From positions 1 to 22,032 of IMG/VR virus record IMGVR_UViG_3300042507_001384: a DNA stretch of 22,032 nt. One strand, given 5' to 3'. Shown piece by piece: positions 6,462 to 22,032 of this stretch. Source of the DNA: a virus. Under the pieces are notes generated by a model. That model was given only the letters and a program-made list of their open reading frames with translations, searched no databases and was not told where the DNA came from. Numbering within the stretch: position 1 is the first letter of the stretch; each line of letters opens with the position of its first letter. The translations under genes were made by a program, and so were the position numbers.

Positions 6462-8081
6462 ATGGCACTCGTACTAAAAGACCGGGTTAAAGAGACCTCC
6501 ACCACCGCAGGCACGGGCACGTTAACGTTGGCTGGCGCAGTAGCGGGGTTCCAATCTTTCTCTGCTGTTGGTAACGGTAACACCACGTATTACGCTATTG
6601 TTGATGCGGCTACTGGTGATTGGGAAGTTGGCCTTGGTACATACACATCTTCTGGTACTACGCTTTCCCGTACAACAGTGCTGTCTTCTAGCAACGGTGG
6701 TTCACTGGTTACTTTTGCGAGCAACGCTAAAGATGTATTTGTTACCTATCCATCTGAAAAATCTGCATATCAAGATGCTGCTGGGGTCATTGCTCAAACG
6801 TCTTTTGGCGCGATCACTGCAACATCTGCAGCGCTAACATCTGGCACAATTACCGCGGTTCCTACTAGCAATACAGACATTGTTAACAAACAGTACGCCG
6901 ACGCTATTGCTTCTGGCATTCACTTCCATGAAGCTGTTGCTCTAGCAACTACCGCAGCCCTGCCAGCAAACACTTACAACAACGGAACGTCCGGAGTAGG
7001 CGCAACGCTCACAGGAAATGCTAACGGCGCTTTGTCGGTGGACTCAACGCTTACAATTGTTGCGGAGCGGATACTGGTTAAAAACGAAGCAGCTGGTGCA
7101 AACAACGGTGTCTATGTTGTTACTCAAGTTGGCTCTGCCGGAACGCCTTACATCCTGACTCGCGCTACAGATTTTGATACTGTGGGAACTGGAGTTGACC
7201 AGATTGACGAAGGTGACTTTTTCTTAGTCACTAGCGGCACTGCTAACGTCAATACTGCTTGGGTACAACAGACTGCTCCTCCCATTACCGTTGGCACAAC
7301 GGCGATTGTCTTCCAACAATTCTCTGCCCCGATCACCTACACGGCTGGCACAGGACTGAACGAGTCACCAAGCTACACATTTAACATTGCCAACACCACG
7401 GTTTCAGCCAATACATACGGCTCAGCTTCTGCTGTTCCTGTGTTTGCGGTTAATGCTCAAGGGCAGCTTACCTCTGTAACCAACACCAATATTGCAATTA
7501 ACGGCTCCGCTGTTACTGGCGCTATCTCTGGCCAAGCTGGTTCTGTAGCCAACGCTTTGACTGCTGGCACATACCTGACCAGCGCAGGTACATACGATGG
7601 CGCTGCGGCCCGTACGTTTGCCGTGGATGCTACGGATGCAAACACAGCTTCCAAAGTGGTGGCACGTGATGCCTCTGGTAACTTTGCGGCGGGAACAATT
7701 ACAGCGGCTTTAACAGGTAATGCTTCAACAGCTACTGCGGCTACAAATGTAGCTGGCGGCGCGGCGAACCAGATTCCATATAACACTGCCGCTAGTACAA
7801 CGGCGTTTATTACTGCGCCTACAACGGCCAGTACGTCTTTGACTTGGAACGGCTCAGCTTTTACTTGGGCGAACACAAGCACGGCAACTAACCTTTCTGG
7901 TGGTGGCGCATACACAGTTGTGTATCAATCAAGCACTGGAACAACGGCGTATTTGACAAACGGTACGACAGGGCAAGTTTTAACTGCAAACACTAGCGGT
8001 GCGCCTACATGGACAACACCTGCTTCTGGCGGTGTTTCTCAAGCTAAAGCTACGGCAATCTCATTGATCTTCGGTCTGTAA
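6462..8081 (+). CDS. Large tail fibre protein
   Basis: A 539-residue Thr/Ala/Ser/Gly-rich protein. Residues 1-100 (LVLKDRVKETSTTAGTGT, then FQSFSAVGNGNTTYYAIVD, then TTLSRTTVLSSSNGG and DVFVTYPSEK) form an N-terminal virion-attachment domain I recognise from many phage fibres. TDIVNKQYADAIASGIHFHE marks the start of a second module with AERILVKNEAAGANNGVYVV and LTRATDFDTVGTGVDQIDEG, a recurring fibre module. The rest is low-complexity beta repeats (SGQAGSVANALTAGTYLTS, then ASKVVARDASGNFAAGTITA) ending in SQAKATAISLIFGL. It has the layout of a trimeric receptor-binding fibre. TAAGGA, containing the stop of the previous gene, is its ribosome site. Confidence 0.8.
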   Translation: MALVLKDRVKETSTTAGTGTLTLAGAVAGFQSFSAVGNGNTTYYAIVDAATGDWEVGLGTYTSSGTTLSRTTVLSSSNGGSLVTFASNAKDVFVTYPSEKSAYQDAAGVIAQTSFGAITATSAALTSGTITAVPTSNTDIVNKQYADAIASGIHFHEAVALATTAALPANTYNNGTSGVGATLTGNANGALSVDSTLTIVAERILVKNEAAGANNGVYVVTQVGSAGTPYILTRATDFDTVGTGVDQIDEGDFFLVTSGTANVNTAWVQQTAPPITVGTTAIVFQQFSAPITYTAGTGLNESPSYTFNIANTTVSANTYGSASAVPVFAVNAQGQLTSVTNTNIAINGSAVTGAISGQAGSVANALTAGTYLTSAGTYDGAAARTFAVDATDANTASKVVARDASGNFAAGTITAALTGNASTATAATNVAGGAANQIPYNTAASTTAFITAPTTASTSLTWNGSAFTWANTSTATNLSGGGAYTVVYQSSTGTTAYLTNGTTGQVLTANTSGAPTWTTPASGGVSQAKATAISLIFGL

Positions 8082-8498: not shown

Positions 8499-9683
8499 AT
8501 GAGCATTCGCTACCCTGCTGGCCGAATTACTTTATCCATTGATCCGCTTGCGGTTCCGGATGCAGCTACGTCTGTTGTGGCTACGGCTTCTAGTTCTAGT
8601 GCGGCGTCAGTGGCGTTTACTGCTCCAGCCAATCCGGGCGTAAGTGCAGTTACCGGCTATTCAGTTGTACAGACCACAGGTGGTACAGTTTTTACTGGGG
8701 CGTCTTCGCCAATCTCCGTGACTGGTTTGTCTGCCAGCACGTCCTACACATTCCAAGTGTGGCCCGCAAACGCCGCGGGTGTTGGTCCTGTGGCTATTTC
8801 AAATACGGTTACAACATCCGCGGCTGTAACTCAAAAAGCTATATTTGGATTTGGAAGTGGCCCAACAGCTATAACTAATCTTGTATCAAACACCGGTGTG
8901 GTTGCAGCAAATACTACAGGTGTAGGTAGTGCGAGGCAAGAATTAGCAGCTGCCGGATATGGTGGCGATAAAGCTATATTTGGTTATGGAACTACTGGTA
9001 CTGCTACCGCAGTAACTAACCTTGTGTCTAACACTGGCGTTGTTGCAACTGATACGACTGGTGTAGGTACAGCCAGATCAGCCCTCGCCGCTGCCGGTTA
9101 TGGTGGCGATAAAGCCATATTTGGTTATGGTGATTCAGGCGGGTTTACTCGAGTGTCTATTACCAATCTCGTATCAAGTACCGGAGTGGTTGCAGCAAAC
9201 ACAACGGGCGTAGGTACTGCTAGAGTTGGATTAGCCGCTGCTGGTTATGGTACAGATAAGGCCATATTTGGGTTTGGTTACGATACATTTTATAGCGCTT
9301 TAACTAATTTAGTATCAAACACTGGCGTTGTTGCAACAGATACTGCCGGTGTTGGAACTGGTAGATACCAACTCGCAGCTGCTGGCTATGGTACTGATAA
9401 AGCCATATTTGGTTACGGTAGAACAGGTTCAGTACAATCAATTACAAATTTGGTTTCCAATACAGGCGTAGTAGCCGCAAATACAACTGGAGTTGGTACT
9501 GCTAGAAACTCTCTTGCTGCCGCAGGTTATGGCGCAGATAAAGCCATATTTGGTTATGGTGATTCAGGCGGGGTTTTGTCCATGACAAACTTAGTATCAA
9601 ACACAGGCGTAGTTGCAACGGATACTGCCGGTGTTGGTACTGCTAGGTCTGGTTTGGCCGCAGCTGGCTACTCATCAACATAA
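8499..9683 (+). CDS. Propeller adhesin 1: FnIII domain plus six kelch-like repeats
   Basis: A 394-residue protein. A short N-terminal anchor (MSIRYPAGRITLSIDPLAV) leads into a fibronectin type III domain at about residues 20-108 (VTGYSVVQTTGGTVF, then GLSASTSYTFQVWPANAAGV). From residue 113 to the end there are six repeats of 45-49 residues: KAIFG(Y/F)G, a variable loop, TNLVSNTGVV, (A/D)(T/N)T(T/A)GVG(T/S)(A/G)R, two variable residues, LAAAGYG. The layout matches kelch-type beta-propeller repeats (Gly-rich strand, central turn, Arg before the next blade), and six is a common propeller number. It is probably a receptor-binding appendage. It is the first of four adjacent paralogues; its anchor matches the second. 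The exact fold is inference. Confidence 0.75.
   Translation: MSIRYPAGRITLSIDPLAVPDAATSVVATASSSSAASVAFTAPANPGVSAVTGYSVVQTTGGTVFTGASSPISVTGLSASTSYTFQVWPANAAGVGPVAISNTVTTSAAVTQKAIFGFGSGPTAITNLVSNTGVVAANTTGVGSARQELAAAGYGGDKAIFGYGTTGTATAVTNLVSNTGVVATDTTGVGTARSALAAAGYGGDKAIFGYGDSGGFTRVSITNLVSSTGVVAANTTGVGTARVGLAAAGYGTDKAIFGFGYDTFYSALTNLVSNTGVVATDTAGVGTGRYQLAAAGYGTDKAIFGYGRTGSVQSITNLVSNTGVVAANTTGVGTARNSLAAAGYGADKAIFGYGDSGGVLSMTNLVSNTGVVATDTAGVGTARSGLAAAGYSST
8835..9683 (+). repeat. Six kelch-like coding repeats (propeller adhesin 1)
   Basis: Six units of 135-147 bp run to the stop codon. The residues after the conserved Arg are QE, SA, VG, YQ, NS and SG. A stretch of about 36 bp around 9108-9143 recurs exactly at 9538-9573 (units 3 and 6), while most other conserved residues use different synonymous codons. 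Confidence 0.85.
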
Positions 9684-9692
9684 GGCACATAA

Positions 9693-10892
9693 ATGAGCAT
9701 ACGCTATATCGCTGGTCGCATAACGGAGTCGATTAACCCCCTGCGGGTTCCGAATGCCCCTGCCACTGCGACGGCTACAGCTACTGCGGCAACCACTGCG
9801 TCTATTGCATTTACGGCTCCAACAGACGTTGGCGGCAGTGCGGTTACAAACTACTTTGCTGTTCAAAATACTGGCGGTACAGTGTTCTCATCGGCAACTT
9901 CACCAATCTCCATAACAGGATTGACTGCTAGCACGTCGTACACATTCCAAGTATGGGCACTAAATACATACGGCGTTGGCCCAGTACTGCAGACTAATAC
10001 GATTACAACATCCGCTGCTGGAACACAAAAAGCTATTTTTGGTTTTGGTAGTGGACCAACAAACATAACTAACCTTGTTTCTAGTACAGGAGTAGTGGCT
10101 ACAAACACAGCAGGTGTGGGTACTTCAAGGAATCTTTTAGCAGCTACTGGTTATGGTGGAGATAAAGCTATATTTGGTTATGGCGATAGTGGCAGTTTTT
10201 CGGGTTTATCCATGACCAACCTTGTGTCAAATACAGGCGTTGTTTCTGCGGATACTACTGGTGTTGGCACCGCTAGATTGGGGCTGGCCGCTGCGGGGTA
10301 TGGTACAGATAAAGGGATATTTGGTTATGGATTTGCAGGATCAACAGAACGTTCCATGACCAACCTTGTGTCAAATACAGGCGTTGTTGCAACAGATACT
10401 ACGGGTGTAGGTACTGTTAGGTGGCTATTAGCGGCAGCTGGTTACGGTACGGATAAAGCTATTTTTGGTTTTGGTAGTGCTGTCGGATCTGCATTATCAA
10501 TCACTAATTTAGTATCAAATACTGGCGTAGTTTCTGTAGATCAGGGAACACTAACTGGCACTGCTAGGCAACAACTTGCCGCCGCTGGTTATGGCGGGGA
10601 TAAAGCTATTTTTGGTTATGGGGTGGTTGCAGGTCCTACGTTCTATTCTATTACTAATTTAGTTTCTAACACCGGTGTTGTTGCCGCAAATACAACTGGA
10701 GTGGGATCGGCTAGAGGTGGAATATCCGCTGCGGCTTATGGAACTGACAAAGCTATTTTTGGTTTTGGAACAACAGGTTCAGTCACCGCAGTTACCAATC
10801 TAGTATCAAACACAGGCGTAGTTTCTACTGATACAGCTGGTGTTGGTACAGCCAGACAACAGCTAGCGGCTGCTGGTTATTCTTTCACATAA
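9693..10892 (+). CDS. Propeller adhesin 2: FnIII domain plus six kelch-like repeats
   Basis: A 399-residue paralogue of the preceding gene. It has the same anchor (MSIRYIAGRITESINPLRV) and an FnIII domain (VTNYFAVQNTGGTVF, then LTASTSYTFQVWALNTYGV). It also has exactly the same distance, 112 residues, to the first repeat, then six KAIFG(Y/F)G...TNLVSNTGVV...AAAGYG repeats ending AAGYSFT. Unit 4 carries a small variant, VDQGTLTGTAR instead of (D/N)T(T/A)GVGTAR. The stop of adhesin 1 is fused to the ribosome site (TAAGG), and the gap is nine bases, as between the other paralogues. It likely assembles on the same virion site as adhesin 1, since the anchors match. Confidence 0.75.
   Translation: MSIRYIAGRITESINPLRVPNAPATATATATAATTASIAFTAPTDVGGSAVTNYFAVQNTGGTVFSSATSPISITGLTASTSYTFQVWALNTYGVGPVLQTNTITTSAAGTQKAIFGFGSGPTNITNLVSSTGVVATNTAGVGTSRNLLAATGYGGDKAIFGYGDSGSFSGLSMTNLVSNTGVVSADTTGVGTARLGLAAAGYGTDKGIFGYGFAGSTERSMTNLVSNTGVVATDTTGVGTVRWLLAAAGYGTDKAIFGFGSAVGSALSITNLVSNTGVVSVDQGTLTGTARQQLAAAGYGGDKAIFGYGVVAGPTFYSITNLVSNTGVVAANTTGVGSARGGISAAAYGTDKAIFGFGTTGSVTAVTNLVSNTGVVSTDTAGVGTARQQLAAAGYSFT
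10029..10892 (+). repeat. Six kelch-like coding repeats (propeller adhesin 2)
   Basis: Six units up to the stop. The residues after the conserved Arg are NL, LG, WL, QQ, GG and QQ. The loop after IFG(Y/F)G varies in length and sequence (for example SGPTN, DSGSFSGLS, VVAGPTFYS). Units 2 and 3 share an exact stretch starting at TCCATGACCAACCTTGTG. Confidence 0.85.
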
Positions 10893-10895
10893 GGA
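10891..10895 (+). promoter_or_regulatory. Shine-Dalgarno deciding the start at 10902
   Basis: AAGGA overlaps the TAA stop of the previous gene (10890-10892). It is three bases from ATG 10899 but six from ATG 10902. The second ATG also gives the nine-base gap seen between the other paralogues and aligns the N-terminus with the next protein (MPNFAG versus MPNYAG). Confidence 0.7.
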
Positions 10896-10901
10896 CACAT
10901 G

Positions 10902-12128
10902 ATGCCAAACTTTGCGGGAGCATGGACATTAAACCAGCAGGCATACGCTAGGGGCCAGAACATTTGGCCAGCTACGCCCAGCGCTCCTACGATTGGTACT
11001 GCTACAGCTACAGGCTCATCTACTGCAACCGTGGCATACACTGCAAATGCTACTGGGTATCCTTCATCAGTAACTTATACAGCTACATCTAGCCCCGGTG
11101 GGTTGACTGGGACAGGTGCATCCCCCATTACAGTGACTGGATTGTCAGCTTCAACTAGCTACACATTTACCGTAACCGCAACAAACGCAACGGGAAGTTC
11201 AACTAGTGCGGCTTCTAACAGTATTACAACATCCGCTGCTGGAACTCAAAGAGCTATTTTTGCTTTTGGTCAGCTTAACAATGGAAACACGACTAACGTA
11301 AACAATCTTGTATCAAATACGGGAGTAGTTGCTACGGATGGAACAGCTGCGGGCGGGGCTAGAGCTTACAGGGCGGCGGCTACTTATGGTACAGACAAAG
11401 CAATTTTTGGATACGGATATAACAATAGTGGCACTGTAGGTAATTCAATAAATCTTGTTTCTAACACAGGTGTTGTAGCTTCAGACACGGCAGGTGCCGG
11501 TACTGCTCGCGCCCCCGCAGCTTGTGGTTATGGGACGGACAAAGCTATTTTTGGTTACGGCGACAATAATGGTGGCGCGTTTTATTCAATGACCAATTTA
11601 GTATCAAACACTGGCGTGGTCGCTACAGACACTGCCGGTGTAGGTTCAGCAAGAGATAGACTTTCAGCTACTAGTTACGGCGGCGATAAAGGCATATTTG
11701 GTTTTGGACGGTTATCTTCCCTTTCTGATACGGCTATTACCAACCTTGTGTCAAATACAGGCGTAGTGGCTACAAACACTGCCGGCGTGGGTAGCGGTAG
11801 AGTTTGGCTGGCTGGTGCTACTTATGGTGGCGATAAGGGCATATTTGGTTTTGGTGGTGGTGTAACTAATGTTACCAATTTGGTATCTAATACAGGCGTA
11901 GTGGCAACTGACACAGCTGGTGTAGGAACAGCTAGAAATGCGCTTGCCGCTTCTGGTTATGGCGCAGACAAAGCTATATTTGGATTTGGTACTACTAGTT
12001 TTGGAAATACTGCTGCAAACGTATCTACAACTAATTTGGTTTCTAACACAGGGGTGGTCGCAACTAATACTACAGGGGTGGGCACTACTCGAAGCGGTCT
12101 ATCCGCTGCTGGCTACTCTTCAACATAA
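10902..12128 (+). CDS. Propeller adhesin 3: FnIII domain plus six kelch-like repeats, second anchor type
   Basis: A 408-residue paralogue. Its anchor, MPNFAGAWTLNQQAYARGQN, is unlike that of adhesins 1 and 2 but matches adhesin 4. An FnIII-like domain follows (APTIGTATATGSSTATVAYT, then VTGLSASTSYTFTVTATNAT). Repeats start at nucleotide 11250 and number six. The first two are the most divergent (RAIFAFG; GTAAGGARAY; NSINLVSN; GAGTARAPAACGYG). I moved the start from ATG 10899 to ATG 10902 because of ribosome-site spacing and alignment with adhesin 4. It is probably a receptor-binding appendage occupying a different virion site from adhesins 1 and 2 (inference from the anchor). Confidence 0.75.
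   Translation: MPNFAGAWTLNQQAYARGQNIWPATPSAPTIGTATATGSSTATVAYTANATGYPSSVTYTATSSPGGLTGTGASPITVTGLSASTSYTFTVTATNATGSSTSAASNSITTSAAGTQRAIFAFGQLNNGNTTNVNNLVSNTGVVATDGTAAGGARAYRAAATYGTDKAIFGYGYNNSGTVGNSINLVSNTGVVASDTAGAGTARAPAACGYGTDKAIFGYGDNNGGAFYSMTNLVSNTGVVATDTAGVGSARDRLSATSYGGDKGIFGFGRLSSLSDTAITNLVSNTGVVATNTAGVGSGRVWLAGATYGGDKGIFGFGGGVTNVTNLVSNTGVVATDTAGVGTARNALAASGYGADKAIFGFGTTSFGNTAANVSTTNLVSNTGVVATNTTGVGTTRSGLSAAGYSST
11250..12128 (+). repeat. Six kelch-like coding repeats (propeller adhesin 3)
   Basis: Six units run to the stop. The residues after the conserved Arg are AY, AP, DR, VW, NA and SG. Units 1 and 2 have lost several consensus residues, which the other 22 units in the window keep. 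Confidence 0.85.
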
Positions 12129-12137
12129 GGACACGCA

Positions 12138-13097
12138 ATGCCAAATTACGCAGGTACGTGGACCCTTACCACACAAGGACAAGCTAGGGGCCAAGGCACA
12201 TGGCCCACCGCTGCCGCTGCTGGAACTCAAAAAGCTATATTTGGTTTTGGGCGGGAGACTAGCTCTGTATCAATAACCAATTTGGTTTCAAATACCGGGG
12301 TAGTTGCAGCAGATACAACGGGCGTAGGAACTGCTAGGTGGTCTTTAGCTGGTTCAACTTATGGTACAGATAAAGGCATATTTGGTTATGGAACTCCTGA
12401 CGGAGGCGCTGAAGTATCAATAACTAATAAGGTATCTAATACAGGCGTAGTTGCTACGGATACGACAGGTGTGGGCACTGCTAGGGTTTTACTTGCAGCT
12501 ACCGGTTATGGTTCATCGGGCCAAGCTATTTTTGGTTACGGGTCTAGCAGTGGAGCTTTTGTTTCTTTGACCAACTTAGTGTCAAATACAGGCACTGTTT
12601 CAACAGACACAACAGGAGTTGGTTTTAATAGAAATGGTCTTGCTGCTGCTGGTTATGGCTCATCTGGCCAAGCTATATTTGGTTATGGTAATAATGGTGG
12701 AAATTTTTATTCAATGACCAATTTAGTCTCCAATACTGGCGTTGTTGGAACAGATGTAACGGGGGTAGGTACGGTTAGGTATGGCCTTGCCGCCGCTGGT
12801 TATGGCGGGGATAAAGTTATTTTTGGTTACGGTAATAATGGGTCATACGTATCAATGACCAATCTTGTTTCAAACACCGGAGTAGTTGCCGCAGATACCA
12901 CAGGTGTTGGGACTGCAAGAGGGTTCTTAGCTGCAGCTATTTACGGCAGTGATAAAGCTATATTTGGTTATGGTTTTACTGGTAGTAACGTATCAATGAC
13001 CAATCTTGTCTCTAACACAGGAGTAGTTGCTACAGACACTACTGGTGTTGGTTCGGCTAGACGAATATTGGCCGCCGCTGGCTACTCGTTAACATAA
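12138..13097 (+). CDS. Propeller adhesin 4: six kelch-like repeats, no FnIII domain
   Basis: A 319-residue, shortest member of the array. The anchor MPNYAGTWTLTTQGQARGQG matches adhesin 3, but only about ten residues (TWPTAAAAGTQ) separate it from the first repeat, so the FnIII domain is absent. Six repeats follow to the stop (ending AAGYSLT). Units 2 and 3 end in GYGSSGQ rather than GYG(T/G)D, so unit 3 and unit 4 begin QAIFGYG. The junction AAGTQ-KAIFG is the same as in the other members, which looks like a clean domain deletion or a primitive form without the domain. Confidence 0.75.
   Translation: MPNYAGTWTLTTQGQARGQGTWPTAAAAGTQKAIFGFGRETSSVSITNLVSNTGVVAADTTGVGTARWSLAGSTYGTDKGIFGYGTPDGGAEVSITNKVSNTGVVATDTTGVGTARVLLAATGYGSSGQAIFGYGSSSGAFVSLTNLVSNTGTVSTDTTGVGFNRNGLAAAGYGSSGQAIFGYGNNGGNFYSMTNLVSNTGVVGTDVTGVGTVRYGLAAAGYGGDKVIFGYGNNGSYVSMTNLVSNTGVVAADTTGVGTARGFLAAAIYGSDKAIFGYGFTGSNVSMTNLVSNTGVVATDTTGVGSARRILAAAGYSLT
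12231..13097 (+). repeat. Six kelch-like coding repeats (propeller adhesin 4)
   Basis: Six units. The residues after the conserved Arg are WS, VL, NG, YG, GF and RI. The loops after IFG(Y/F)G include RETSSV, TPDGGAEV, SSSGAF, NNGGNF, NNGSY and FTGSN. Confidence 0.85.
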
Positions 13098-13106
13098 AGG
13101 AAACAC

Positions 13107-13697
13107 ATGGCTTCAAACTTAAATTCAGAGTTCAACTATCGCTACCAAGTTATTGGCAGCACCCCTTGGGAAAAAATCAAAACGCTTCAGGGCTTTTTGG
13201 TGGGGCGCAAACGCGCTGCTGTTCTTGAGGAAGTTGCGGATTTAAAGCATCAGGCCAAGATTGAAGAAATAAAAAGTTTAAAGGAAGTGCCTGCTTTGCC
13301 TCATATTCTGTTGAACTTGCAAGCTGAGCTTATTGAGGCCGAGTCGTTCCTCGAAGACCAGAAACATGCGTTTGAGCTAAACCGCAAAGAGATCCAGATT
13401 CTGGAAAAACTGATTGCTGAGCTGTACCTTGAAGTAGAACCAACCCGTTTGAAGCACGAAGATGGCACGCCTTACACAGACGATGAGATGTTTGAGGCCA
13501 ATGCCAACTACGAGTTTACGGTAACGATTGGCCGAGAAATCCAAGCTGAAATGATTGTCAACGGTAGGCCAAGTCCTGCTAAACTGCTTAACGCAATGAG
13601 CAACCCCCAAACACTAGAAATGCTAAAGAGTGTTGGGTTTGTACCCCAAGAAACCGTGCTGCTGAGTACCAAAGATGTCCCTTTGCAACTGAAATAA
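13107..13697 (+). CDS. Coiled-coil protein of fibre region, possible fibre chaperone
   Basis: A 196-residue acidic, largely helical protein with no repeats. The N-terminus SEFNYRYQVIGSTPWEKIKT then LQGFLVGRKRAAVLEE is a pattern I recall in aquatic phage genomes next to fibre genes, but without known function. Residues about 40-110 have long heptad-like Leu/Ile/Glu/Lys runs (LLNLQAELIEAESFLEDQKH, then RKEIQILEKLIAELYLEVEP), consistent with a coiled coil. The C-terminal part (MSNPQTLEMLKSVGF) is compact. Its place straight after the propeller genes and before a fibre-region oxygenase suggests a fibre assembly or bridging role, which is inference only. AAAGGAAA lies upstream of the start. Confidence 0.7.
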   Translation: MASNLNSEFNYRYQVIGSTPWEKIKTLQGFLVGRKRAAVLEEVADLKHQAKIEEIKSLKEVPALPHILLNLQAELIEAESFLEDQKHAFELNRKEIQILEKLIAELYLEVEPTRLKHEDGTPYTDDEMFEANANYEFTVTIGREIQAEMIVNGRPSPAKLLNAMSNPQTLEMLKSVGFVPQETVLLSTKDVPLQLK

Positions 13698-13711: not shown

Positions 13712-14251
13712 ATGAGTCACTTACCCCTTTGGTACACATCTGAACTGGACAGCGCTACCTGCGATCAAATTATTGCAGAGCTGTCTGGTATTGAGGTACG
13801 TGACGCTACGATAGGGTTAGATGGAACAGACAAAGACAAAACTACCCGCAATACCAACGTGCGGTTTGGTGACGCTGACTATTGGCTTGGCGACAGGTTT
13901 GAGCAGTTTGCGTTAGAAGCCAACAAGGTTTGTAAATGGGACTACCACATCACGGGGCGTGAGAACGTGCAGTTTGCTGAGTACGGACCAGAGCAGCACT
14001 ACGCTTGGCACACCGACACCTTCACATTGGCAGGCACTCCAACTGAGCGCAAAATTACCGCCATTTGCCTTCTAAACGACGAGTTTGAGGCGGGTGAGTT
14101 CCAAGTGCGGCTGTACAGCGACTACACAGCACCGCTGAAAAAGGGGACAATGATCGCGTTCCCGTCTATTCTTGAACATAGGGTTATCCCTGTGACGTCA
14201 GGAATTCGCTACTCGGCTACCATGTGGTTTAACGGGCCACGGTTTCGTTAA
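13712..14251 (+). CDS. 2OG-Fe(II) oxygenase, prolyl-4-hydroxylase-like
   Basis: A 179-residue protein with the complete facial triad and cosubstrate residue of the 2-oxoglutarate/Fe(II) dioxygenase fold: H100-x-D102 in QHYAWHTD, distal H156 in FPSILEHRV, and R166 in PVTSGIRYSATMWFNGP. The surrounding motifs (EYGPEQHYAWH, AICLLNDEF, KGTMIAFPS) fit the P4H/PKHD group, which uses O2 and 2-oxoglutarate to hydroxylate proline or other side chains. It lies 18 bases before a collagen-like fibre gene, so hydroxylation of that fibre is an attractive inference. Other targets, such as a different virion protein, remain possible. AAGG upstream supports ATG 13712. Confidence 0.85.
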   Translation: MSHLPLWYTSELDSATCDQIIAELSGIEVRDATIGLDGTDKDKTTRNTNVRFGDADYWLGDRFEQFALEANKVCKWDYHITGRENVQFAEYGPEQHYAWHTDTFTLAGTPTERKITAICLLNDEFEAGEFQVRLYSDYTAPLKKGTMIAFPSILEHRVIPVTSGIRYSATMWFNGPRFR

Positions 14252-14269: not shown

Positions 14270-15841
14270 ATGTCAAGTACTTTTTCCACTCTCAAATTTG
14301 AGTTAATTACCACGGGCGAACAGTCAGGTTCGTGGGGGGCGACAACCAACACTAATATTGGTACAGCTATTGAGCAGGCTATGGTAGGCATGGCGACACT
14401 GACTTCGGCAAATTTTGCCTCTAACGTCGCTACTTTGACTTTGACAGATACCAACACAGCCCAGAACGCCCGTGCACTGTGTTTAAACATTGAAGCTGGC
14501 GCAGTCTCTGCTGCTGGTACGATCAACGTGCCGCTGATTCAGAAGCCTTACATTGTTATTAATAACAGTAGCTTTACAGTTACAGTCAAAGTAAGTGGCC
14601 TCACAGGTGTGGCAGTGCCGTCAGGCAAACGTACGGTGGTATATAACAACGGTACAGACGTTGGCAATCAAATTGACTACTTGGCTACTTTGGTCCTTGG
14701 CACTCCCTTGCCGATTACTTCTGGTGGCACGGGCACTAGCTCAACAACCTTTGTAAACTTGGCCACCAACGTAACCGGCAATCTTCCAGTCGCTAATTTA
14801 AATAGCGGGGCAAGTGCTTCTGGCGCTACATTCTGGCGTGGTGATGGCGTATGGGCTACCCCCGTTGCGGGCACGGGCACGGTGACTTCTGTTGCTGGCG
14901 TAGGATCTGCTAACGGTCTTACTTTAGGCGGAACCGTTACATCTTCTGGCAATATAACTCTTACCGGTACCGTGACAGGCGTTAGTTTATCTACTGGTGT
15001 AACGGGCAACTTGCCTGTTAGCAATTTAAACAGTGGTACAAGCGCGTCGTCTGGTACTTTCTGGCGCGGTGACGGTGTATGGGCTGCTGGTGTTTCAGGA
15101 CCTACTGGACCCACTGGACCTACTGGATTAACCGGACCCACTGGACCTACCGGCCCAGCCTCAACTGTACCCGGACCTACTGGACCCACTGGACCTACTG
15201 GATTAACCGGACCCACTGGACCTACCGGCCCAGCCTCAACTGTACCCGGACCCACTGGACCCACTGGACCTACCGGCCCAGCCTCAACTGTACCCGGACC
15301 CACTGGACCTACTGGACCTACTGGCCCAGCCTCAACTGTACCCGGACCCACCGGACCTACAGGTTTAACTGGACCTACTGGACCCACTGGCCCAGCTTCA
15401 ACAGTACCCGGACCCACAGGCCCTACCGGACCTACCGGACCTACCGGACCCACAGGCGGATCTAACACTCAAGTTTTGTATAACAGTGGTGGTACGTCTA
15501 CTGGCTCGGCAAACTTAACTTTTGACGGCACAAACTTAACCTGCGGCGGTAACATCACGGCTTACTCTGACGAAACGCTGAAGATGAACTGGCGCGGATT
15601 CCCAGAAGACTTTATTGAGCAGCTTGCGCAAGTGCAGAGCGGTGTGTTTGACCGTGTTGATACCGCTTTAACTCAGGTTGGTGTGGGCGCGGGCTCGTTC
15701 CAGAAAGTTATGCCTTACGCAGTTCAAAAGCATAGTGATGGCAAGATGTCGGTGTCTTATGGTAACGCTGCTTTGGCTGCGGTGATTGAGTTGGCCAAGC
15801 GTGTCGTGTCTTTGGAAAAGCAGTTAAAAGCCAAGGAGTAA
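14270..15841 (+). CDS. Collagen-like tail fibre with S74-like C-terminal domain
   Basis: A 523-residue fibre. N-terminus: [20 protein letters not shown] then [16 protein letters not shown], a known virion-attachment module. The shaft contains two copies of a GNLPV(A/S)NLNSG...FWRGDGVWA module. Residues 277-396 are collagen-like Gly-X-Y, mostly GPT with some GLT and GPA, broken five times by STVP. The C-terminus starts at S433 with SDETLKMNW, the landmark of S74-type intramolecular chaperone domains (Ser-Asp autocleavage site), and ends with [20 protein letters not shown], the typical trimerising helix. The middle of that domain is less typical than usual. It is expected to be a trimeric receptor-binding fibre, with possible modification by the adjacent oxygenase. 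Confidence 0.85.
15098..15460 (+). repeat. Collagen-like GPT repeat tract with exact 75-bp duplication
   Basis: A tract of Gly-X-Y codons. 15098-15172 and 15173-15247 are identical 75-bp direct repeats (seven triplets plus STVP). Two 48-bp units (15248-15295, 15296-15343), one 66-bp unit (15344-15409) and a final plain GPT run follow. The exact duplication indicates recent expansion. Confidence 0.9.
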
Positions 15842-20757: not shown

Positions 20758-22032
20758 ATGAGCCTTCATGCAATAGCCAACCACATGGCCTCTAAAGGTA
20801 GAGGCGGAGACTCCATGCTCATCCACATGACCCCCGGCGAGGTTGGGGGTCTTCAGGCGTTGGCTTTAAAACATGGTGGTTCACTAACAATTAACCCAGA
20901 GACGGGCCTACCTGAAGCCAAGTTTTTAAAGAAGCTTCTTCCAGCACTTATCGGCTTTGGTCTTAATATGTTTGCCCCCGGCCTTGGTTCGGCTGTTGGC
21001 GCTGCTTTAGGTACTAGCGCAGCTGTAGGTACAGGTATTGCTGTTGGCGGTTTTGAAACATTGCGCACTGGCAGTTTGAGTAGAGGTTTGTCGGCTGGTT
21101 TGGGTGCCTATGGCGGCGCAGGGTTGGCTGGTTCTATGGCTAATGCTGGTGCTGTTGGCGCTGGTGCTGGCGTTGGTGCTGGTGTTCCCGCTGATATGGC
21201 GTTTAATTTAGCGGATGCTGGCGTAACGGATGCTGGTATTCAGAGTTTAGGAAACGTAGAAGCAGCAAATCAGGCTGTTCAGGGAATACAGCCGTCTGCA
21301 TTTGACAAAGTTGGGGCTGGATTTAAAGCCGTTACAAAAGACCCCTCTGCATTTGGACAGTTTGCCAAAGACAACTGGAAGCTAGGACTTGCCGCAGCAT
21401 CCCCAATTATTGCGGATGCAATGGTTCCAACGTCGACAAAGATGCCTACAGCGCAGTCTACAGGCTACATCCGTCCTTATTCGTTTGACCCAAACACTCA
21501 AGCTCTTACTCAGCTACCTCCATATAAAGCTAAGGATGGTGGCTTAATTGCTCTTGCTGGTGGTGGTAATCCTGCCGACGATCCTTATGCTAGATACAAC
21601 ACCTTGTCTGGCCAGTCTAAAGCTGCGTACGATTATTTGATGGGTAATACTGCAAGTTCAGCAGTTGCACCTGTGGCAGCAGTTCAACCCCCTGCCCCAA
21701 CACCTGCACCTGCGGCTACTACAACTACTACAACACCAGCAAAAAAAGATGATGATTTACCAACTACTAATCCTATGCAGACGACTCCAGTTACAGGCGG
21801 TGGTGGCGGTGGCGGTGGTGGCGGTGCTAGCTCCTTTATGGGCACCGCAAGTGTAGGTAATACCTCCGCACCTGTAGATGATGGCTCAGATTTTATTCCA
21901 GCTAACCCTAGTGATTTTGGTGCTGTAGATGATGGCTCAGATTTTATTCCAGCTAACCCTAGTGATTTTGGTGCTGTAGATGATGGCTCAGATTTTATTC
22001 CAGCTAACCCTAGTGATTTTGGTGCTGTAGAT
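20758..22032 (+). CDS. Large Gly/Ala-rich virion protein, 3'-truncated (possible ejection protein)
   Basis: 425 codons are visible with no stop before the window end. The N-terminus MSLHAIANHMASKGRGGDSM then HMTPGEVGGLQALALKHGG and NPETGLPEAKFLKKLLPALI is a pattern I recall from large phage proteins of unknown role. Residues about 60-140 are hydrophobic Gly/Ala-rich (GFGLNMFAPGLGSAVGAALG and onward), as in internal virion proteins that cross membranes during genome ejection. Then come a soluble part, a motif KDGGLIALAGGG, a Pro/Thr linker, a run of 11 Gly, and perfect 17-residue repeats (VDDGSDFIPANPSDFGA). GAGAGG upstream supports ATG 20758. It may be an ejection protein or a large tail protein. 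Confidence 0.7.
   Translation, partial: MSLHAIANHMASKGRGGDSMLIHMTPGEVGGLQALALKHGGSLTINPETGLPEAKFLKKLLPALIGFGLNMFAPGLGSAVGAALGTSAAVGTGIAVGGFETLRTGSLSRGLSAGLGAYGGAGLAGSMANAGAVGAGAGVGAGVPADMAFNLADAGVTDAGIQSLGNVEAANQAVQGIQPSAFDKVGAGFKAVTKDPSAFGQFAKDNWKLGLAAASPIIADAMVPTSTKMPTAQSTGYIRPYSFDPNTQALTQLPPYKAKDGGLIALAGGGNPADDPYARYNTLSGQSKAAYDYLMGNTASSAVAPVAAVQPPAPTPAPAATTTTTTPAKKDDDLPTTNPMQTTPVTGGGGGGGGGGASSFMGTASVGNTSAPVDDGSDFIPANPSDFGAVDDGSDFIPANPSDFGAVDDGSDFIPANPSDFGAVD
21874..22032 (+). repeat. Perfect 51-bp tandem repeat, cut by the window end
   Basis: Units at 21874-21924, 21925-21975 and 21976-22026 are identical, and six bases of a fourth follow. Each encodes 17 acidic residues (VDDGSDFIPANPSDFGA). 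No difference at any position indicates very recent expansion or an assembly effect. Confidence 0.9.

Follow-up and report, generated by a model that had tools for sequence, protein, structure and literature searches.

The window, by which we mean the whole 22,032-nucleotide stretch of DNA that was analysed, derives from an uncultured tailed phage and contains, between positions 8499 and 13097 (plus strand), four abutting genes whose translations each hold exactly six repeats, 24 in total. A sequence-only reading of this DNA had described four neighbouring paralogues with six repeats each and arrays that run to the stop codon, and this description is borne out by the translations. The repeats are 45-52 amino acids long and start with K/R/Q-x-IF-G/A-Y/F-G; the last repeat of each array passes into a GYSxT stretch, which is followed at once by the stop codon. 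Spacers of 9, 6, and 9 bases lie between the genes, which are organized as follows.

8499..9683, plus strand: gene 1, with an anchor (MSIRYPAGRITLSIDPLAVPDA), one fibronectin type III (FN3) domain and a predicted six-blade propeller
8565..8789, plus strand: FN3 domain of gene 1 (Pfam PF00041 above cut-off, 4.5e-6)
8835..9683, plus strand: six repeats of gene 1, predicted six-bladed kelch propeller (AlphaFold2, Foldseek)
9693..10892, plus strand: gene 2, with the anchor type of gene 1, FN3 at 9756-9983 and six repeats at 10029-10892
10899..12128, plus strand: gene 3, with a second anchor type (MMPNFAGAWTLNQQAYARGQNIWP), an FN3-like domain at 10980-11210 and six repeats at 11250-12128
12138..13097, plus strand: gene 4, with the second anchor type (MPNYAGTWTLTTQGQARGQGTWP), no spacer domain and six repeats at 12231-13097
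13107..13697, plus strand: conserved neighbour gene of 196 amino acids, which recurs at propeller loci

The FN3 part of gene 2 matches the minor tail protein family PHROG 6977 (5.8e-8), and the FN3-like domain of gene 3 falls slightly short of the Pfam cut-off (E 1.7e-4). The four genes sit in a phage structural module: upstream lies a tail-fibre-like gene (6462-8081; PHROG 8745, 4e-23), and the genes downstream encode a 2OG-Fe(II) oxygenase, a collagen-like fibre, a holin, an M15 peptidase endolysin, and a further protein with relatives annotated as tail stabilisation or needle-head proteins. A separate 30.6-kb record is 100% identical across 18.9 kb, all four genes included, so that the array is not an artefact of one assembly. 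Between the repeats of the window, about half of the codons of strands c-d differ synonymously only, which indicates that the repeats are old rather than recent duplicates and that the protein pattern has been kept by selection.

Other features of the window deserve mention in their own right. The oxygenase gene (13712-14251) lies directly upstream of the collagen-like fibre gene with its GPT repeats (14270-15841), and the enzyme might hydroxylate the collagen repeats of the adjoining fibre; the two occur together at four loci only, three of which represent the same virus. Small Lys/Gly-rich proteins encoded at 175-1909 share the ending (K)xADGxASRGKTxGxM or a similar one and are apparently paralogous. 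A perfect 51-bp tandem repeat of 3.2 copies occupies 21872-22032 and continues past the contig end.

Predicted fold and repeat number

For structure prediction, the gene 1 array was submitted to AlphaFold2 together with 139 relatives from two families, its own and a sister family with YGWFGGG repeats. The resulting model is a closed propeller with a mean pLDDT of 94.5 and a pTM of 0.92. Foldseek returned 234 matches in the PDB at E <=0.001, and the best 50 of these are all six-bladed kelch or designed kelch domains, headed by KLHL17 (E 4e-13, TM 0.80). The model of gene 4, built on a thin alignment of 74 similar rows, is weaker (pLDDT 58.9), and its kelch matches are the same. Each repeat of the model supplies the strands b (AIFG), c (ITNLV), a short d, and a (AAAGY). 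In nearly all relatives the arrays open at strand b and finish at strand a by the stop codon; because of this order, the last strand a could complete only blade 1, and the ring is thus predicted to close at the stop codon.

The number of repeats in relatives was assessed with two samples. Since the first survey had been selected by a six-repeat query and was biased accordingly, a second sample was drawn via the neighbour gene (13107-13697), which yielded 48 new complete arrays. Six repeats were present in 45 of them, including two arrays that are split by frame shifts and were rejoined (L144, 3+3; L099, 2+4), while two arrays had five repeats and one had two. Taking both samples together, 125 distinct complete arrays comprise 115 with six repeats (the two rejoined arrays among them), two with 12, and two with 18; the exceptions have five (three arrays), three (one), or two repeats (two). 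Proteins with 12 or 18 repeats have them in unbroken succession save for linkers of 7-26 amino acids after repeats 6 and 12. The exceptions are losses of whole units and may reflect collapsed assembly. Genes with 2, 2, and 3 repeats that are complete and have normal ends lie at L044 8927-9307, L118 10724-11110, and L013 6147-6965; since 2 and 3 divide 6, oligomeric rings are conceivable, in which six blades might be built from three or two chains, as is collapsed assembly in these cases.

Altogether, the prediction, the fold search, and the near-invariance of six or multiples of six point to a closed, six-bladed ring of the kelch type with four strands per blade, which we regard as a nearly certain model of these arrays. 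The sequence-only reading had proposed such a ring and had named two observations that would speak against it, a predicted solenoid or disorder and homologues whose repeat number varies (four, five and nine, for instance); gene 1 was instead predicted as a closed propeller, and 119 of the 125 arrays hold 6, 12, or 18 repeats. A solenoid or a disordered low-complexity repeat of no fixed number might have been suspected from the first model, made from a thin alignment (pLDDT 59), but the second model, together with the linkers that follow each six, leaves it with a negligible probability.

The same reading had called the repeats kelch-like, which holds for the predicted fold but not for the sequence. 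Pfam kelch models (PF01344 and relatives) did not match the four window proteins at E up to 1 and were absent from the 25 most-matched families for 74 relatives at E up to 10; a pattern-free alignment of 504 repeats places G-Y/F-G where kelch repeats have a double glycine after strand b. The family thus has a predicted kelch fold and is not a member of the Pfam kelch families by sequence. Pfam matches to Peripla_BP_4 and GxGYxYP look composition-driven and were dismissed, as were DUF3489 and SNARE matches of the sister family.

This sister family, found in phage contigs from freshwater, carries YGWFGGG...STVDRITYATDTATASVRGP repeats and has six of them in 40 of 48 complete arrays and 12 in one. 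It resembles the propeller family in its kind of anchor, in the presence of the same neighbour gene in L111, and in variable b-c and pre-a sites that are visible in its sequences, whereas its framework sequence differs. It retains the GG after strand b and matches the designed kelch protein SAKe6FR (3.8e-8) and KLHL12 (5e-4) by sequence. Its whole arrays are linked to the propeller family at the profile level only (probability 60%, E 8e-5), and hhalign comparison of single repeats was not significant; the sister family may therefore bridge the propeller family to kelch, though weakly. At L111 (10727-12292), L170, and L197, repeats of the form YGWFGGG...STVDRITYATDTATASVRGPLSxAR follow the same kind of anchor, with up to four tandem copies per locus. 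The marine repeat RGVFGGG...VDYVTIATTG, which the sequence-only reading had mentioned, is real and present in the isolated cyanophage S-SKS1. There (L216 1657-3416 and 4343-6192, minus-strand coordinates on the reverse complement), frames of 9 and 3 repeats overlap, and as they do so twice, the arrangement suggests 12-repeat proteins interrupted by sequencing errors or real frameshifts.

Modularity, spread, and the predicted variable face

The same propeller is found after bare anchors of about 25 amino acids, after FN3, LamG-like, and Calx-beta-like parts (the last two labels being given by the appearance of the sequence), and after other N-terminal parts. At other loci, similar anchors bear tips that are glycine-rich, LamG-like, or FN3. 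The N-terminal parts, anchors and spacers alike, are freely exchanged. Of 80 propeller loci, 42 contain the neighbour gene; when loci were collected by means of the neighbour gene, 57 of 73 had a propeller gene no more than 300 bp away. Because it is also found beside other tips, the neighbour gene appears to serve the fibre cassette as a whole and not just the propeller. Family searches gave no credible match for it; we give about even chances to the idea that it acts as an assembly helper or adaptor of the adhesin cassette.

Relatives occur in hundreds of phage contigs and in hardly any bacterial genome. IMG/VR contains at least 496 of them (500 candidates examined). Among 50,697 sequenced phages no relative was found by blastn or by tblastn, even at E 10, a result that low-complexity masking may weaken. 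An alignment query of 84,980 bacterial and archaeal species recovered one relative, and a single-repeat query of bacterial and archaeal genome contigs gave no match. The nearest viral structures belong to uncharacterised proteins of uncultured Caudovirales (71% identity), and no printed occurrence of the repeat motif was found in the papers searched. The bacterial relative is located in the Oligoflexia MAG BroJett040 (L084 9818-11624), where a six-repeat propeller gene and the neighbour gene lie between chromosomal genes. The N-terminus of the propeller protein (SRRKFFVISRLVAGAGLFAMFFPHFAGA) resembles a Tat-type signal peptide, and the two-gene insert is absent from the other 99 genomes searched as relatives of this MAG; the locus could represent a captured secreted adhesin or a misassembly.

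Variability within the repeat is concentrated at two hypervariable places, the b-c loop and the two residues before strand a, with strand limits taken from the AlphaFold2 model. Measured over 504 distinct repeats, the entropy per position is 3.5 bits at each of the two pre-a residues and ranges from 2.3 to 3.6 bits along the b-c loop, and most other positions stay below 1 bit. In antiparallel four-stranded kelch blades, one face carries the b-c and d-a connections and the opposite face the a-b and c-d connections. Given this topology and the predicted strands, all variable sites should share the same face. What is new here is this pair of variable sites per repeat and their predicted placement on a single face.

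The pattern of selection was examined in eight array pairs with anchors of 85-100% and neighbour genes of 98-100% identity; in seven of these pairs the arrays themselves share 72-89% identity, and in the eighth 99%. Although the counts are not independent, since the pairs have some loci in common, the pre-a residues show 68 non-synonymous and 2 synonymous changes in 90 codons and the b-c loops 158 and 30 in 324 codons, compared to 201 and 447 in 1850 framework codons. The pair alignments contain isolated loop changes within otherwise identical DNA and also blocks one blade long with mixed changes, the latter of which suggest segment exchange. A minority of allele-specific 20-mers recur elsewhere in the same contig. 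Generation of the loop diversity by a diversity-generating retroelement (DGR) might be considered, as the loops are rich in Tyr, Asn, Ser, and Gly. However, the variable codons include CAA, GGA, GAA, TGG, and GCA and use all four bases at the third position, unlike the NNY codons that derive from AAY; they are spread over dozens of separate sites across four genes, and no reverse transcriptase family was detected among the window proteins scanned, which represent an incomplete genome. We hence consider a DGR highly improbable.

A candidate phage adhesin and its known counterparts

We propose that each of these proteins is a virion adhesin composed of an anchor, in some cases an FN3 spacer, and a six-bladed kelch propeller at the C-terminus. 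The adhesin role itself and the explanation as a whole both appear probable; given that role, a tail rather than a head position would be probable as well. The propeller ring is probably one part that the phage uses for gripping its host. The sequence-only reading had seen in the four genes copies of a propeller adhesin carried by one phage, and it gains indirect support from the tail-gene context, the modular swapping, and the fast change confined to one predicted face. In the proposed mechanism, the short N-terminal anchor would dock onto the tail or a fibre, and FN3, where present, would act as a spacer between anchor and propeller. The C-terminal strand a (LAAAGYS) would join blade 1, whose strands b, c, and d come from the start of the array; such closure would explain why arrays run from strand b to a strand a just before the stop codon and why they come in sixes. 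The b-c loops and pre-a residues would project from one face, where they would form as many as 12 variable patches in contact with the host receptor, with the conserved a-b and c-d turns forming the opposite face. Host range could be retuned when loops change and when adhesin genes trade blades, whole arrays, and anchors with one another, and four copies per phage would provide several specificities.

Two other roles have to be weighed against this proposal. The proteins could decorate the head or form side fibres that stick to particles, mucus, or non-host surfaces, similar to Ig-like capsid decorations. The FN3 spacers and the short anchors are reminiscent of decoration proteins, the presence of several copies in one genome would fit, and family searches found no known tail-fibre attachment domain; yet the genes lie among tail-fibre and lysis genes, their anchors are common to other fibre-tip modules, and strong diversifying change on one face is more in keeping with a receptor that evolves than with a surface that stays constant, which makes decoration unlikely. 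Less likely still is a tail enzyme with a galactose-oxidase-like, sialidase-like, or glycan depolymerase propeller: while some kelch-fold viral proteins in the fold search carry the annotation galactose oxidase, Pfam gave no credible enzyme family match for the window proteins and 74 relatives, the conserved positions are Gly, Asn, Thr, and Val framework residues, and the exposed loops of the 504 repeats display no conserved acidic or metal-binding set.

If the proteins are receptor-binding adhesins, they bear on a wider problem, since sequence mostly does not reveal how uncultured phages recognize their hosts. The grammar of this family is simple (anchor, spacer, six blades, two variable sites per blade), and its probable specificity residues can therefore be read from metagenomes and tracked over time. 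We tentatively speculate, at somewhat less than even chances, that for aquatic phages the kelch propeller serves as a binding scaffold of general use, comparable to antibodies: its six-blade frame would stay fixed, as many as 12 hypervariable patches on a single face would diversify through exchange of blade-sized segments and strong selection rather than through a retroelement, and the whole would be mounted on interchangeable anchors beside a shared helper gene.

Several known systems invite comparison. The Photorhabdus PLL/PHL lectins are seven-bladed. They share with the present family a symmetrical propeller, which they use as a lectin, and a weak profile match in repeat register (E 1e-4), but they differ in blade number, and the fold search prefers kelch for the propeller family. 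Closer in architecture are the BTB-kelch proteins (KLHL17, KLHL12, KLHL20, Keap1) and the designed SAKe proteins, which likewise have six blades of four strands each and repeats of about 48 residues, with TM-scores up to 0.80 (Foldseek E 4e-13). Identity to these proteins is 12-18%, and the phage family has G-Y/F-G in place of the kelch double glycine and a near-identical framework in all blades; the near-identical blades make it a natural counterpart to the designed symmetrical SAKe kelch proteins.

Kelch-fold proteins of tailed phages include a kelch-motif protein of BcepSaruman and the proteins CBB_550, CBB_552, and CBB_554 of the giant phage CBB, with CBB_552 present in the virion (PMC5259590). 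In the fold search they are at most 25% identical to the propeller family. A hypervariable-face pattern is not known to have been described for them, and CBB is a giant phage whereas the window has genes of the short-tail type. Propellers are used or proposed as receptor-binding domains in phi11 Gp45 (five blades), PRD1 P2 (five), and PhiKZ gp131C (seven), as given in PMC4901313; with five or seven blades, these are not C-terminal arrays in tandem paralogues. What sets the family described here apart from the known phage propellers is that it keeps strictly to six blades, has a near-identical frame, varies on one face, and occurs as tandem paralogues.
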